Assembly (NCBI GenBank): GCA_943788115.1
Contig: CALSPA010000012.1
Coordinates: forward strand, 310,001 to 374,000
Direction of reading: 5' to 3'
DNA: 64,000 nucleotides
Origin: an uncultured Flavobacteriales bacterium
Lineage (GTDB): Bacteria; Bacteroidota; Bacteroidia; Flavobacteriales_D; Parvicellaceae
Each line of letters opens with the position of its first letter. Position 1 is the first letter of the stretch. The notes below the pieces were generated by a model that had not been told where the DNA came from, did no database searches, and saw nothing but the letters and a program-made list of their open reading frames with translations. A program made the position numbers and the translations under genes. Of this stretch, positions 20,321 to 32,503 are shown piece by piece.

Positions 20321-21751
20321 TCAATTATTAATTTCCAACAGTTGGGCAGGTTTGTTGTGAAGTTTGAAAATGTAAAGTCCAGCTGATAGGTTGGGTAGTT
20401 TTATGCTTCTATTTTTGGAATTAATGATTCCTGATAAAACCATTTTTCCAGATATTGAATATATATTATACTGAGTTTCTTCCTTTAAATCTATTTCAAT
20501 ATTAATGAAATCTTTAGCTGGATTTGGATAAATTAAGATTTCCTTATTATCTTCAAGTTCGGAAATTTCAACTGTTGGAGAACAGGGGATGATGCTATTG
20601 TTAAAATTCATGCTTAATGCATGATCATATAAAGCATCGCAAATGTAAAGCCCATCACCTTCCCCATTAGTTAAAACACAGATACCTACATCATTTGATG
20701 GGTCAATTAATAAATTAGTATTCACCCCGCTTTCTCCACCGTTATGGCTCCATAGCATTGCTTCTCCACCGCTATAATAGAGCTTAGTGCGGTACCAGTT
20801 TAGTCCTTGAGTAGTATCTAGGTTAGGGATTTGAAAAGATAACATGTCGTTTACAGTAGAAGGACTTAATATCGAATTGTTGCCTAGGTTACCCCCATTT
20901 AGAAAAGCAATCATGAAATTACCCAAATCAAGAATGGTGCTTCTTAATTGACCATTTGGATAGTCTGCAAAACCGTAATGATTATAAGGTGTGTAGTTTC
21001 CGTTTTGATAAGAATATGGAATAGCAACCTGATCTGGATTAAAATCAGAAAAATGCCATGCTGTATTCTCCATGCAAAGTTCATTAAATAGGTTGTTATC
21101 GCAATAATCATCAAATGCAACCCCAGTACTAGCTTCAATAATATATCCATTAAGTGCAGATGCCATATTCGAGTATTGGTATGAAGAACCTGGAGCTGAA
21201 TTTATAAAATTCCCTGTAGCATTGTAATTAGAACCTGATGTTGGAAAGTAGCTTTCCATACAATTGGCTAAGGAGATGGTCGGGTCGGGATAGCCATAAA
21301 AGGAACTCATTACTCCCCAATTGTCTTTTATAGATGAGGTGTGTGTCATTAATTGACGAATAGTTATTGAATCATTAGAGAAATTTGGAATTTCAACTGT
21401 CCAAGGAAGGTAGTTGTTGATGTCAGTGTCTAGATCGACAGTTCCTGCTTCGTATAGCTGCATTGCTGCAGTTCCAGTAAATAATTTAGAAACAGAAGCC
21501 AGTAGAAATACTGTTGTATCTTCCACTTGTAACGAATTGGCAATATCAGCATATCCGTAGGATTCTACCCAAACAATTTTGTTATTTTTCACAATTATTG
21601 TGGATACTCCGGGGAAATGTCGAACACTCATTTCACTTTGAATTGCAGCATCAAGCGATGAGCTTGGGTTTGGGTTTTGTGTAAAACAGTTTATTTGGAT
21701 ACAATGAAATAAAAAAATCAAAAGTATGAGCTTAATAAACTTTTGACTCAT
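20321..21751 (-). CDS. T9SS-secreted serine hydrolase, class C beta-lactamase fold
   Basis: Beta-lactamase/D-alanyl-carboxypeptidase-like hydrolase (esterase or peptidase). From ATG 21751 the protein has 476 residues with a signal peptide (SQKFIKLILLIFLFHCIQIN). The catalytic SxxK is SVSK at residues 86-89, the second motif is YSN (SYQYSNMASALNG), and HNGG (LWSHNGGESG) takes the place of KTG. The last 75 residues form a T9SS type A sorting domain (IYPNPAKDFINIEI, YNIYSISGKMVLSG, LSAGLYIFKL). The frame stays open to 21904; Met at 21793 is another possible start. Substrate unknown. Confidence 0.88.
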   Translation of the reverse strand: MSQKFIKLILLIFLFHCIQINCFTQNPNPSSSLDAAIQSEMSVRHFPGVSTIIVKNNKIVWVESYGYADIANSLQVEDTTVFLLASVSKLFTGTAAMQLYEAGTVDLDTDINNYLPWTVEIPNFSNDSITIRQLMTHTSSIKDNWGVMSSFYGYPDPTISLANCMESYFPTSGSNYNATGNFINSAPGSSYQYSNMASALNGYIIEASTGVAFDDYCDNNLFNELCMENTAWHFSDFNPDQVAIPYSYQNGNYTPYNHYGFADYPNGQLRSTILDLGNFMIAFLNGGNLGNNSILSPSTVNDMLSFQIPNLDTTQGLNWYRTKLYYSGGEAMLWSHNGGESGVNTNLLIDPSNDVGICVLTNGEGDGLYICDALYDHALSMNFNNSIIPCSPTVEISELEDNKEILIYPNPAKDFINIEIDLKEETQYNIYSISGKMVLSGIINSKNRSIKLPNLSAGLYIFKLHNKPAQLLEINN

Positions 21752-22029
21752 AAGAATAGGTGTCGAATTGGTATTTTTTTTTACAAGATTCATTTTAGAA
21801 CTTTTTTGGTATCTTTTTTTAATCACGTAAACATACAAACAATCAACAAAGCTTACTTTAGGTTTTTGTAAGTTTCTTACAAAACCATAATTCAAACATG
21901 ACATTTAGCAGACGGTATTTTTTTATTTTATTTAAAATTATTTTTAATAAAACATGCATTATTCTAAATAGCACAATTAAATCCAGAAATTTTTTAAACT
22001 ATGTTTAAATTTCGTTAGTAATTATTTTG

Positions 22030-22485
22030 TCATTCATTAATGACTTTAATTTCATTTTTCTTTTTACCTCCAATAGTCCATCTATATGCTACAGTTGAGA
22101 TTAGACCAGCGTCAAAGCTAATTTCCGAATCAGTTCCAACTTCAAAACTAAAAGTGAAATTTCCAATTTTAGCTTGAGGTCCAATTAATAGCGGCCAAGG
22201 TCGAACTGCTAATGCTATGTTGTTTTTTAGGTTTCCATAACCAACAGCCACTTTTCCAGTAATAATGCTGGGAGCTGCAATTCCTACTTGGTATTCAAAA
22301 ATCCCATTATCTGAAAATTGTTTTGTTTGACCAAATAAAAAACTGGCTCCCGGAAAACCATCTGAAAAGTCATAGCCGTCAATTGCCGCAATGCCAATAT
22401 TTAGTTCTAAAAATTTCACTTTATTATTTTCTTGTCCAAATAGTACTATTGGAACCAAGGCAAATAGAATAATTAATTTTTTCAT
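22030..22485 (-). CDS. Hypothetical envelope protein, probable small beta-barrel
   Basis: 151 residues with a signal peptide (MKKLIILFALVPIVLFGQ). Strand-like segments are VKFLELNIGIAAID, IFEYQVGIAAP, NIALAVRPWPLLIG and FTFSFEVGTDSEI. It ends with a Lys-rich tail (GGKKKNEIKVINE) rather than an aromatic residue. Probably periplasmic or an outer-membrane barrel. No family recognised. Confidence 0.55.
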   Translation of the reverse strand: MKKLIILFALVPIVLFGQENNKVKFLELNIGIAAIDGYDFSDGFPGASFLFGQTKQFSDNGIFEYQVGIAAPSIITGKVAVGYGNLKNNIALAVRPWPLLIGPQAKIGNFTFSFEVGTDSEISFDAGLISTVAYRWTIGGKKKNEIKVINE

Positions 22486-22625: not shown

Positions 22626-24605
22626 TTATTGAATTATTACTGAAAGATCTTTTATGGCTACAATTATTTTATCTTTTTCTTGTGGCTTGTCCTTTATAGC
22701 ACCTAAGTTATCTACAAATTCCCAACCTAAATTTTTAAACGATGTGCAATCTTCTTTTTCAAGCTGATGTATTATCATAATCTGCTTACCAACACAAAAT
22801 CCGGGATTCGTTGTTTTAAATCCATTTATGGTGTGATCTATTTCCCTGAAAATGGGTTTTCCTGTTTTATTTCTTTCTTTGATAAGCTGCTTAAAATAGG
22901 GGATTAGCTTGTGATTAATGGTAGAGAATTTTTTAAATGCTTGAATAATCGATGAATCTGAATAGACTTGTAAATTATCTTCAGGAAGTAATCCTTCGTG
23001 AGTTCTAAATACTGGAGTAAAAGCCTCAAGTAGCATCCAATCTTTAAGAAGATTTTCTTTTCTAATGCAGTTTTTAATTAGCGGTTTTTTTACAGACGTA
23101 TAGCCACCAACATCGCTGTGAATAATTGGAATCCCGGAATAAGATGCGCTTAAATAGGCGTCAAAAACACTGCCTAACCCATCTTCAACAGTATAGTCTA
23201 CCATTTGGTCTCCAGCCCACATCATAGACGAGTACTGTTCAATTTTTTTGCCGCCAGAGCGATTAAAAAAGAACAGTTCTTTTGCAGGATTTTCTATAAT
23301 TATCTCGTAATTTAATTTTGCCCATAGAACAGGGTATTCATTGTGTTTTTTAAGGTCATTGATGAGCTGTTTAACATGTTCTCTTACTGGATACCACTCT
23401 GCAAAATCTGCCATCCATCCCGAAAACCCTGCATCTACCAAATTGATTTGAATAATCTGCTTCATCCAATTGTAAGCGTCTTTATTGAATAAATCTATCA
23501 TGTAGCCTTTAATACCTCCAAATTTGAATTTGATGACTTCTCCATTCTTAGAAATAAAGTACCCATTTGAAATACCTTCATTTACATAGGGACCATCTTC
23601 AGCAAAAAATGGATTAATGTATCCAAGTAGTTTAATGTTTTTTTCTTTTAATTCGGATTTAAAAATCTCAAATTTTAAGTAATGGTCTTTATCTAATTGC
23701 CATCTCCATTTTAATCGGCTGCCAAATTTTGTAGGCTGTTTACCCACCCAATCCTGTATCCAAATCGCATTTACTTTTACGCCTTGCTTTAGAAGGCTAT
23801 TTAGTTTTTTTTGTACCTCTTGTGACCCCCCTTGTACGCCTAATATTGTTCCCAAAGCCCAAGCGGGTAGCTTGTAGGGTAATGGTTTGTTGATTGCATG
23901 AATTTCTTTTAACGATTCATCGAAGCTTAAAGTAAATGATGCCGCTTGGTCAAAAATATCGAAGCTAATAAAGTCGTCACTGAATTTAACTTCGGAATAG
24001 GCATAATCGTTCCAAGAAAAAGATCGATATAAGCTAGTAGTAAATTGGGTTAAAGGACAATAGGTGGCATAGCTTTCTCCTTTAGCTCCTACCAATGATG
24101 TCCATTTGCTAATGCTACCCCCTCCTCTTCCTATTCCATTTTCCTGAGTTAGGTTGATGATGGATTTATTGTATTGTTTGTATTTCGAAAATTGGATACC
24201 TCCTCCGTAAATTTCTTCTAAATTTTTTCTTTTAAAGGGAATGTGCCAATGGTTGGTTTTAACGTTAGAAGAAACGGTAAGTTCTAATTTTCCTGAACTA
24301 TTTGTGCCAATTTCTAATTGAATTTCTTTGTTTCCTTTTTTCCAAACAACAGCTTGGTTATCATACTTTATGATTTTAAACCCATCTATGGATGTTGATT
24401 CTTTGAAAGAAACATGGAACGTCCCTAATTTTTCTTTGACCTTAACTTTACTAGTTTGGAAATACACTTTTTTAAAATCTATTATAAACAGTTCCTTTTT
24501 AGTGGAAAGTTCTCTGATTGTAATAGTTCCTCCAGTTGTGTCTAAAAGCTGAGTTTTTAACGGATTTAAAATCCACAGAAATAATATAAAAACTAAGTAG
24601 CGCAA
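22626..24605 (-). CDS. Secreted GH31 glycosidase with sulfoquinovosidase signature
   Basis: 659 residues with a signal peptide (MRYLVFILFLWILNPLKTQ). Retaining alpha-glycosidase, GH31: the nucleophile Asp is in GFSGWMADFAEWYP (about residue 398) and the acid/base Asp in SSMMWAGDQMVDYT. Compared with E. coli YihQ (sulfoquinovosidase), the segment QDWVGKQPTKFGSRLKWRW keeps the Arg and Trp that bind the sulfonate, and HSDVGGYTS keeps the Tyr. This predicts cleavage of sulfoquinovose from plant or algal sulfolipid glycosides. No SQ-catabolic neighbours are present, so free SQ may be used elsewhere in the genome. Other GH31 specificities cannot be excluded. Confidence 0.8.
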   Translation of the reverse strand: MRYLVFILFLWILNPLKTQLLDTTGGTITIRELSTKKELFIIDFKKVYFQTSKVKVKEKLGTFHVSFKESTSIDGFKIIKYDNQAVVWKKGNKEIQLEIGTNSSGKLELTVSSNVKTNHWHIPFKRKNLEEIYGGGIQFSKYKQYNKSIINLTQENGIGRGGGSISKWTSLVGAKGESYATYCPLTQFTTSLYRSFSWNDYAYSEVKFSDDFISFDIFDQAASFTLSFDESLKEIHAINKPLPYKLPAWALGTILGVQGGSQEVQKKLNSLLKQGVKVNAIWIQDWVGKQPTKFGSRLKWRWQLDKDHYLKFEIFKSELKEKNIKLLGYINPFFAEDGPYVNEGISNGYFISKNGEVIKFKFGGIKGYMIDLFNKDAYNWMKQIIQINLVDAGFSGWMADFAEWYPVREHVKQLINDLKKHNEYPVLWAKLNYEIIIENPAKELFFFNRSGGKKIEQYSSMMWAGDQMVDYTVEDGLGSVFDAYLSASYSGIPIIHSDVGGYTSVKKPLIKNCIRKENLLKDWMLLEAFTPVFRTHEGLLPEDNLQVYSDSSIIQAFKKFSTINHKLIPYFKQLIKERNKTGKPIFREIDHTINGFKTTNPGFCVGKQIMIIHQLEKEDCTSFKNLGWEFVDNLGAIKDKPQEKDKIIVAIKDLSVIIQ

Positions 24606-24670: not shown

Positions 24671-25456
24671 TTATATGGAAAAAGAACCTTTTAGATATAG
24701 TTTTGCTTGTCCTGCGATAATTACTCTTTCCCCAATGTTTTCACAATACAACTCGCCAACTCTTTGAGAAAGCTGCAACGCATTTAATTGGTTTTTAGCT
24801 AGTTTTTTGGCCCAATAGGGAATTAACGTACAATGAGCAGATCCAGTAACAGGATCTTCTAATATGGTGGCTTGAGGAGTGAAAAATCTAGAAACAAAAT
24901 CTGATGAATCTCCTTTTGCAGTAACAATTACCCCTCCGAATCCTAAATTAATGGTGTCGAAAATTTGTCTGTCAATTTTGATGTTTTCAATTTCCTGCTG
25001 ATTGTCATAAACAAGTAAGTAATCTCTTGCTTTGTATATTTCTTTAGGTTGTATATTTAATGCAGACTTTATTGCGGTTGGTAGCTCAGTAGGGATAGGT
25101 TTTCTAGATGGGAAATTTAAGTGGTAATAATCATTTTTGAAAATTACTTCAAGCTTTCCGCTTTGGGTGTTAAATAGTAGTGGGTTAGCAGGGTGTTTGA
25201 GCACTGATTTTAACACATAAGCAGCAGCTAAAGTAGCGTGACCACATAAATCAATCTCAAGATCTGGTGTGAACCATCTTAGCTGAATTTCTTTTCCATT
25301 GTCAATAAAAAATGCGGTTTCAGCAACTGCATTTTCCTTGGCAATTTTTAAAAGTAAATCATCGGCTAGCCATTTTTTTAGAGTAACTACACAAGCTGGA
25401 TTTCCTGAAAATAGCTTAGTTGTGAATGCGTCAACTTGATAAATGGGATAATTCAT
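24671..25456 (-). CDS. PhzF-family epimerase/isomerase
   Basis: 261 residues, the family length. Diaminopimelate-epimerase-like fold with two halves. The N-terminal block YQVDAFTTKLFSGNPACVV, the catalytic-Glu region AVAETAFFI, WFTPDLEIDLCGHATLAAA and EDPVTGSAHCTLIPYWA are all typical. Cytoplasmic. Members include phenazine PhzF and many of unknown substrate; there are no phenazine genes nearby, so a general isomerase role is more likely. It is followed on the same strand by the GH31 gene after a 65-bp gap. Confidence 0.88.
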   Translation of the reverse strand: MNYPIYQVDAFTTKLFSGNPACVVTLKKWLADDLLLKIAKENAVAETAFFIDNGKEIQLRWFTPDLEIDLCGHATLAAAYVLKSVLKHPANPLLFNTQSGKLEVIFKNDYYHLNFPSRKPIPTELPTAIKSALNIQPKEIYKARDYLLVYDNQQEIENIKIDRQIFDTINLGFGGVIVTAKGDSSDFVSRFFTPQATILEDPVTGSAHCTLIPYWAKKLAKNQLNALQLSQRVGELYCENIGERVIIAGQAKLYLKGSFSI

Positions 25457-31110: not shown

Positions 31111-32503
31111 TTAATTTTTCACAATCTTAATTCTACTAAAATTACCGTCATTATTTATAAGTTCAAGAATATATATTCCTGATTTCACTTTTAAATCGTA
31201 ATTAATAATTTTAGTTGATTTATAACTTTGAATTGAAATTAATTTACCGCTAAGGTCTCTCAGGTTAACGATTAAATTAGCTTGAACATTTTCAAATTTT
31301 AATGATAAATTCCCATATGTTGGATTTGGATAAATATTAACTTTTTGTTTTAAATTATCTAATATATTGTTAGTAGAGATGTTAAATGGCGAAGATGTAG
31401 TAGGGCAGCCCATCTAGAAAACTTACTTCTACAGTATAATTACCATTAATTGATGGTGCTAAATTAATACTATTGGCCCCATTAATAATGTTGTTGTCTA
31501 GATACCACTGGTATCCAATTCCTGAAATATTGCAAGTTAAAATCCCTCCATTTTCTGTAATATTGGGAATTGGATTTTGTGAACATATTTGCTCATTTGT
31601 AATTCTGTTTGAATTGGATAAAGAATCTTGAAAAGTATTGAAATCAATGCAATCATTTTTAAGCGTATAATTAAGCCATAGGTTTAAAAAATCAAAAGTT
31701 ACATCATGTTGCTCAGCTCTACTTAAAGAAATGCCTGAAGAGGAAGTGCTTTCACCAAAATCACAATTGAAATTCGAATTAGCAAAATAGCAATGTCCTC
31801 CTCCTGTGATAGATATAAATGTTTTGCAATCAGAAGATAGTGAATTGTATATAGGTAAATGATGGTCGTTAGGTGGTGTTACTCCATCTTGACTTCCTGA
31901 AAAAATTAATGCTGGAACCGTAATACTTGATGCAGAATTAATTGACGAAACTCCATTAGAAGTAGATTCTGCAGGTGCTAAACCTATAATTGTTTTCAGC
32001 TGATTATTAGCGTTTATACACAAAGAATCTGCAGCTAAAAATGATGCTCCACCTCCCATAGAATGCCCCATTAGTGCGGTATTGTTATTAACTCCATTAA
32101 AAAGTGGTGATGAAGAGTTGTTTCCTTCATTTTGTAGTTTTGTTACTAGAAATTGTAAGTCCCAACCAAATTGTTGGTGATCAGTTGAAAAAATATTCCC
32201 TTCAGTTTTTGGAAATGCCATTATGTATCCTCTAGGAACAAGCTCTTCCCATAAATTTTCGTAAGAGTCCCAAGACATTACAAAACCATGTCCAAATACA
32301 ATAACTGGGAAATCTCCGATAGCAATTGGTGAATTAATTGTAGATGAAGATGCTGGATAATAAATTTCTGTTTCAATAGATCTGTTTGCTCTGTCGGGAT
32401 CTTGGAAAGTTACATTGTAATGCCCAACTGGATACTGAGCAAAAGTTGGAAAAGAAAAAAACAGAGTAATAAAAATTAGATTTAGTTTTATGTGGTTATT
32501 CAT
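31111..32503 (-). CDS. T9SS-secreted alpha/beta hydrolase (esterase/lipase type), one frameshift
   Basis: Signal peptide (IKLNLIFITLFFSFPTFAQ) then a dienelactone-hydrolase/PAF-acetylhydrolase-like domain. FPVIVFGHGFVMSWDSYENL is the oxyanion region, ALMGHSMGGGASF the nucleophile elbow (GHSMGG), and GSQDGVTPPNDHH and GGGHCYF supply Asp and His. An Ig-like segment (ISGIGYQWYLDNNIINGANS) and a T9SS type A sorting domain (IYPNPTYGNLSLKF, VKSGIYILEL) follow. The frame slips at about 31412, where one G appears inserted in the GGGC run. The two frames join naturally as VEVSFLD then GCPTTSSPFNIS. Reconstructed length about 464 residues. Confidence 0.85.

Follow-up and report, generated by a model that had tools for sequence, protein, structure and literature searches.

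The locus considered here raises the question of what an apparently exported sulfoquinovosidase (SQase)-like enzyme would do in a bacterium in which its gene stands apart from any recognised set of genes for the catabolism of sulfoquinovose (SQ), the sulfosugar that forms the headgroup of plant and algal sulfolipid and is made on a very large scale. The window, that is, the whole analysed stretch of 64,000 nucleotides from a contig of an uncultured Flavobacteriales bacterium, carries on its minus strand, at 22626..24605, a gene for a 659-aa GH31 SQase-like enzyme that opens with a TTG codon (24605-24603). TTG occupies the same position in the homologues L002 and L003, which are 76% and 66% identical to the window protein, respectively, and ATG is found there in L004. 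A scan for promoters and terminators was uninformative (15 and 2 sites, versus 10.1 and 1.3 in shuffled sequences). A preliminary description portrayed the product as a secreted, solitary SQase that processes algal sulfolipid outside the cell. The reading that we favour, with a probability of roughly two in three, is that of a Sec-exported, periplasmic, retaining alpha-sulfoquinovosidase of family GH31, its catalysis being predicted from conserved residues and a modelled structure.

Family assignment, predicted fold and sulfonate site

Assignment to GH31 was borne out by the TIM-barrel model PF01055, the sole Pfam family in the window protein, which scored 130.6 bits against a curated cut-off of 23.5, by the presence of both catalytic Asp residues (D400 and D466), and by a sequence comparison with the PDB, in which YihQ ranks first (1.7e-88). 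The next PDB matches are other SQases, down to 1.1e-72, and the non-SQase GH31 entries are far weaker (7.5e-18 and below). Identity to YihQ amounts to 28% across aligned columns. The closest automatic family model for these enzymes, NF007746 (the PRK10426 equivalog), bears the name ‘alpha-glucosidase’ and gives the window protein 495.6 bits; this lies under the cut-off of 553 and, consequently, the protein is not filed in that equivalog family.

In a 14-row alignment, YihQ residues R301, W304, Y508, D405, D472, Q262 and Q288 (K-12 numbering) correspond to R297, W300, Y502, D400, D466, Q258 and Q284 of the window protein, which thus has the YihQ residue at all seven positions examined, including the Arg, Trp and Tyr of GH31 SQases and the YihQ-type Gln/Gln pair. 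The codons, all on the minus strand, lie at 23706..23717 for R297 and W300 (codons 297-300), 23406..23408 for D400 at the nucleophile position, 23208..23210 for D466 at the acid/base position and 23100..23102 for Y502. We take R297, W300 and Y502, together with Q258 and Q284, to be sulfonate-site positions by analogy with YihQ; sulfonate binding by these YihQ residues, and Gln/Gln versus Lys/Glu as marks of two SQase types, are reported in the work of Speciale in 2016 and of Abayakoon in 2018. The retention of the Arg/Trp/Tyr set and of both catalytic Asp residues, on which the preliminary description had built, was confirmed, and the misalignment of sulfonate residues that it had envisaged was not encountered. 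Moreover, in five other Bacteroidia GH31 proteins (L041-L045) of a 37-row alignment, both Asp residues and the Tyr are kept and the Arg/Trp pair is replaced, so that the full site exceeds the GH31 background.

An AlphaFold2 model of the window protein, obtained from a nine-sequence input, has a mean pLDDT of 78.1 and a pTM of 0.84, with pLDDT below 50 in the loops 467-475 and 503-512, which adjoin D466 and Y502. In a Foldseek search with this model, SQases take each of the first 23 places (TM by query 0.79-0.82), followed by a chain at 0.64. VIA-align places nine SQase entries at Z 38.5-43.7 (rmsd 3.0-3.6 over 595-610 residues) and the other 41 of the 50 entries listed at Z 35.8 or less. The predicted fold, hence, is closer to the nine solved SQase entries than to any other GH31 among the entries listed. 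The alignments span, for instance, window residues 18-659 on 5aeg residues 8-670, with only the N-terminal signal region falling outside the fold. Collectively, the conserved residues and the predicted fold support the SQase identity proposed at the outset.

The same residues and fold speak against the candidate that default annotation would supply, an ordinary alpha-glucosidase. A subtler form of this idea, namely, that this exported GH31 enzyme had an SQase-like ancestor but itself cleaves alpha-glucosides, or some anionic 6-substituted glycoside other than sulfoquinovosides, would be in line with the low identity to characterised SQases, the score below the YihQ equivalog cut-off, the lack of recognised SQ catabolism (see below) and the presence of Gln at the R301 position in five of the 23 class-wide matches, which could reflect a drift of specificity inside the clade. 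We nevertheless consider it improbable, given that the window protein keeps every sulfonate-site position, the Arg and the two Gln among them, and that the five non-SQase GH31 proteins of the comparison have other residues in place of Arg/Trp.

Characterised enzymes place these similarities in perspective. Escherichia coli YihQ (GH31; PDB 5AED, 5OHT) has in common with the window protein the catalytic Asp pair, Arg/Trp/Tyr, both Gln residues and the whole fold, but lacks a hydrophobic N-terminus and is encoded in the yih SQ operon, whereas the window protein is divergent in sequence, predicted to be exported and without recognised SQ neighbours. The Agrobacterium tumefaciens SQase (PDB 5OHS, 5OHY, 7OFX) is alike in fold. 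The Ensifer homologue (L020) shares the catalytic residues and Arg/Trp/Tyr, but has Lys/Glu in place of Gln/Gln; its gene lies among genes for an HpcH-family aldolase, an SDR, an aldehyde dehydrogenase, a TauE-family exporter and sugar ABC-type proteins, which by family fit a sulfo-ED pathway. Eubacterium rectale SftG (6PNR) and BmSQase (8R56), SQases by entry title, likewise resemble the window protein in fold, with sequence scores slightly under that of YihQ. According to the available text of PMC11968277, SftG is part of an SQ pathway in the Firmicute E. rectale and has measured kinetics, and Table 1 of that article gives known SQases a kcat/KM for pNP-SQ of 1.1e5 to 6.4e5 per M per s. The NAD-dependent SQases of GH188 (SqgA) carry out the same net reaction as proposed here, but belong to an unrelated family and use an oxidoreductive mechanism; one studied member comes from a Flavobacterium (PMC10755693, available text).

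Predicted export and cellular location

The signal peptide claimed for the window protein was substantiated in the form of a strongly hydrophobic, signal-like N-terminus. The predicted Sec-type signal spans approximately residues 1-19, ending in KTQ (24549..24605, minus strand), with a putative cleavage site; relatives are hydrophobic here as well, and the structural match to SQases begins at residues 17-20. Measured as the 11-residue mean on rows cut at the domain start, a hydrophobic N-terminal stretch is present in all 22 Bacteroidia rows (1.6-3.0) and in none of the six scorable rows of the clade that unites YihQ, Ensifer and Firmicutes proteins (at most 1.0), the seventh row being too short. 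This measure is a coarse one: it is uncertain where L024, L031 and L035 start, and when the first 38 residues are taken as called, the contrast shrinks (1.6 for L038 versus 1.5 for L007).

By pattern, there is no lipobox Cys in the first 40 residues of the window protein, nor does it contain a T9SS sorting domain (Por_Secre_tail or CHU_C; PF18962, PF13585) at E 0.001. An extra sorting domain is absent from the model as well, because the aligned range covers nearly the whole of YihQ. These observations bear on the proposal that the enzyme acts outside the cell. An enzyme that acts on algal sulfolipid at the cell surface or beyond it would be expected to carry a signal-like N-terminus, as this one does, yet no domain extends beyond the SQase fold, the lipobox is missing and so are the T9SS tails, even though such tails do occur in the neighbouring protein encoded at 20321-21904 and beside the gene of a relative. 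We, therefore, rejected export as a T9SS substrate or lipoprotein and hold an extracellular location of any kind to be very improbable. The periplasm is the better reading: with a signal-like N-terminus, neither lipobox nor T9SS tail, and a mature chain that matches YihQ approximately end to end, the protein is most likely a soluble periplasmic enzyme, as far as location can be predicted from sequence and model.

The preferred reading, thus, is a periplasmic SQase, which might operate as follows. Following export by the Sec route, R297, W300 and Y502, with Q258 and Q284, would hold the C6 sulfonate of the substrate; D400 would form the glycosyl-enzyme, with D466 as the putative acid/base. Sulfoquinovosyl glycerol is a candidate substrate, as is, possibly, sulfolipid that crosses the outer membrane; SQ and either glycerol or diacylglycerol would be released. 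The glycerol could enter metabolism via glycerol kinase and would presumably be usable, since such a kinase is encoded, and SQ may leak out to the benefit of others or be channelled into a pathway that has yet to be recognised in Bacteroidota.

Gene neighbourhood and SQ pathways

The gene is preceded on its own strand, at a distance of 65 bp, by a gene for a PhzF-family protein (24671..25456, minus), which is not an SQ gene. Downstream, again on the same strand (22030..22485, minus), lies a gene for a 151-aa protein whose N-terminus is signal-like and which falls into no Pfam family at E 0.01. Homologues of the two respectively precede and follow the SQase-like gene in L002 (84% identity for the 151-aa protein), the contig of which belongs to G096, a genome of the host's genus. 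Pfam scanning of ten neighbours recognised, besides PhzF, the beta-lactamase-family protein with a T9SS tail at 20321-21904, a trypsin-like protease, a SpoIIE-type phosphatase, a PETase-like hydrolase and a WYL protein; of the remaining four, three could be placed in no family and one has sub-threshold matches only. Neither the scan of these ten neighbours nor BLAST of the ORFs revealed a recognisable SQ-pathway gene near the window gene, in agreement with the claim that the locus is not an SQ pathway cluster. The hydrolase, a PETase/chlorophyllase-like alpha/beta protein (31382-32503, minus), is 77% identical to a protein encoded on the contig of the L002 SQase-like gene; a lipase-type partner is conceivable.

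The picture is much the same at 23 loci (415,564 bases; 347 ORFs of at least 100 aa), which include five with the Gln variant (L048, L052, L056, L059, L061) and leave aside the broken gene of G542 and five non-SQase loci. Every locus yielded a GH31 match to YihQ, and none contained an SQ cluster by BLAST against the K-12 yih region and the Ensifer region at 1e-4; apart from GH31, four ORFs matched those regions, two of them matching an ABC protein, one a short-chain dehydrogenase and one YihU over 62 residues. When a conserved operon partner was sought across the clade, neighbours were found to be shared only between close relatives, for example, between the window and L002, or among L047, L049, L050 and L060. 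Annotation of neighbours was selective, with 40 proteins scanned against Pfam and the other ORFs compared by BLAST to the E. coli and Ensifer regions. The epithet ‘solitary’ hence holds insofar as there is no SQ cluster; as a peculiarity of the window gene it does not, since the relatives examined have the same arrangement.

The host assembly (2.68 Mb in 28 contigs) contains a single PF01055 match and is rated 89.5% complete, so SQ genes may be missing from it. Searches for YihS, YihT, the sulfo-ED aldolase, SQ monooxygenase (SMO) and TAL/FSA families were carried out in 23 genomes, 6 from the order-wide and 17 from the class-wide search for relatives; G542 and genomes with the Gln variant are among them. 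Neither YihS nor YihT proteins were found in the six genomes of the order, the host's own among them, as a solitary SQase would have it, and YihT was absent from all 23, both searches being without positive control. The YihS family PF07221 gave no match in the six genomes and none over the cut-off in the 23, with one weak match below it. Weak matches to the HpcH/HpaI family of the sulfo-ED aldolase (PF03328) were obtained in 4 of 23 genomes, one of them over the cut-off only when neighbours were counted. SMO belongs to the Bac_luciferase family (PF00296), which is represented in one genome of the 23, G443, by a protein encoded elsewhere than at the SQase-like locus. By contrast, the TAL/FSA family (PF00923) is found in 22 of 23 genomes, with a second, longer member in G002, G063 and G081; because it is nearly universal here, the protein probably belongs to ordinary metabolism, though a sulfo-TAL role is conceivable. 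Glycerol kinase (TIGR01311) matched in all 23 genomes, over the cut-off in 20, which lends the glycerol route weak support, as it also matched in 11 of 14 control genomes.

In the same 14 control genomes, matches numbered 1 for NF007746 (none over the cut-off), 2 for PF07221 and 10 each for PF03328, PF00296 and PF00923. The searches with NF007746 and PF07221 are weakly controlled, because the E. coli control, presumably a strain without yih genes, was negative for both.

These results bear directly on a further possibility, that a periplasmic SQase feeds, with the help of an SQ importer, an SQ pathway whose genes lie in another part of the genome (sulfo-TK, sulfo-TAL, sulfo-SDO or a route not yet recognised). 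Such an arrangement would be consistent with the frequent inclusion of GH31 SQases in SQ gene clusters (PMC10755693, available text, which also describes GH188), with the TAL/FSA proteins, including the second, longer ones, with the Bac_luciferase-family protein of G443 and with a search scope limited to the families named above. The distribution of the pathway families argues in the opposite direction: YihT and above-threshold YihS are lacking in the 23 genomes, although the former search had no control, the sulfo-ED aldolase and SMO families are confined to four weak cases and one genome, respectively, and TAL/FSA is probably ordinary. In particular, G002, a single contig rated 99% complete, has no match to the HpcH/HpaI, YihT, Bac_luciferase or YihS families. 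On balance, we regard a pathway encoded elsewhere as rather unlikely.

A Bacteroidia clade of SQase-like proteins

A search of 399 genomes of the order with the window protein gave matches at 1e-50 in six, the host's own among them. The YihQ-type model NF007746 matched 22 of 395 genomes of the class at 1e-80, again including the host; of the 23 matches, 12 (the window protein among them) have Arg/Trp/Tyr, 5 have Gln for Arg, 5 are without the site and the remaining one, L040, is disrupted by stop codons. A contig scan found eight loci and, being pattern-based, is not a census.

A phylogenetic tree was built from 34 rows of the 37-row alignment; L039, which duplicates the window protein, was removed, as were L040 and L017, both incomplete. 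All 22 SQase-like rows from Bacteroidia group together with support of 100/97, apart from a seven-row clade of YihQ, Salmonella, Ensifer and four Firmicutes proteins (100/99) and from the five non-SQase rows, which form their own group (100/100). The tree is midpoint-rooted, with L036 flagged as a long branch and nine rows, including that of the window protein, flagged for unusual letter make-up, and a ‘sister’ relation of the two SQase clades, accordingly, depends on the root. Under this root, the window protein falls outside the clade that holds YihQ, and no biochemically characterised member was identified in its own clade. Since Gln replaces the Arg in five of the 23 class-wide matches, the Bacteroidia clade as a whole need not consist of SQases. 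This replacement at R301, in proteins that retain the Trp, the Tyr, the two Gln and the two Asp residues, was observed in L025, L030, L034, L037, L038, L007, L008 and L009; the variant is seen in Bacteroidia and Firmicutes and, therefore, possibly reflects a repeated change of specificity.

The Bacteroidia clade appears to be uncoupled from the SQ pathways tested. Somewhat short of an even chance, in our estimate, is the broader proposal that it constitutes an old clade of periplasmic SQases detached from SQ catabolism, in which SQ is either released as a public good once the glycerol or lipid has been gained, or fed to an SQ pathway yet to be described. Such a clade would carry more weight than the single gene of the window: if its members are active, SQ would be freed in the periplasm of bacteria that perhaps do not use it, to feed others or to enter a novel SQ route.

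None of the article titles listed in literature searches describes an exported Bacteroidetes SQase, although an earlier description may exist. In the available text, a survey of six SQ pathways across 21,845 aquatic genomes counts SQ degraders by predicted pathways (PMC13372026), so that exported, cluster-free Bacteroidia SQases would be missed; its discussion reports a GH31 SQase with a partial pathway in Elstera-related genomes, and ‘Bacteroid-’ occurs once, in a reference title. The portions available of a 2026 review (PMC12890257) do not contain the terms Bacteroid-, extracellular, periplasm- or GH31, nor do those of an article on yihQ diversity (PMC13219744) contain Bacteroid-, signal peptide, extracellular or periplasm-. 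For the most closely related Bacteroides and Phocaeicola, the available text of PMC12330013 states that the type strains encode no known SQ pathways.

Origin as a phage gene was considered and rejected: 72 viral-contig stretches matched by pattern, none of which encodes a relative, and 23 records of a phage collection matched the enzyme, all at less than 60% identity (32-34% for the five listed). Plasmid records matching the enzyme numbered 110, all likewise below 60% identity.

Several relatives show features of their own. The YihQ-like gene L040 (genome G542) is interrupted within the match by one TGA and three TAG codons and is likely decaying. In G024, a 57%-identical relative (L014/L017) near a contig end has one TGA within the match and is regarded as truncated or broken, because only a 403-aa C-terminal open frame was called. 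L046 (9109-15240, G443) encodes a melibiase/GH31-like protein two genes from the SQase-like gene. Finally, at L049 (6953-8545 and 10564-11742), a sulfatase gene lies directly beside the exported SQase-like gene, which is flanked on the other side by a gene for a 78% homologue of the L047 MFS protein.
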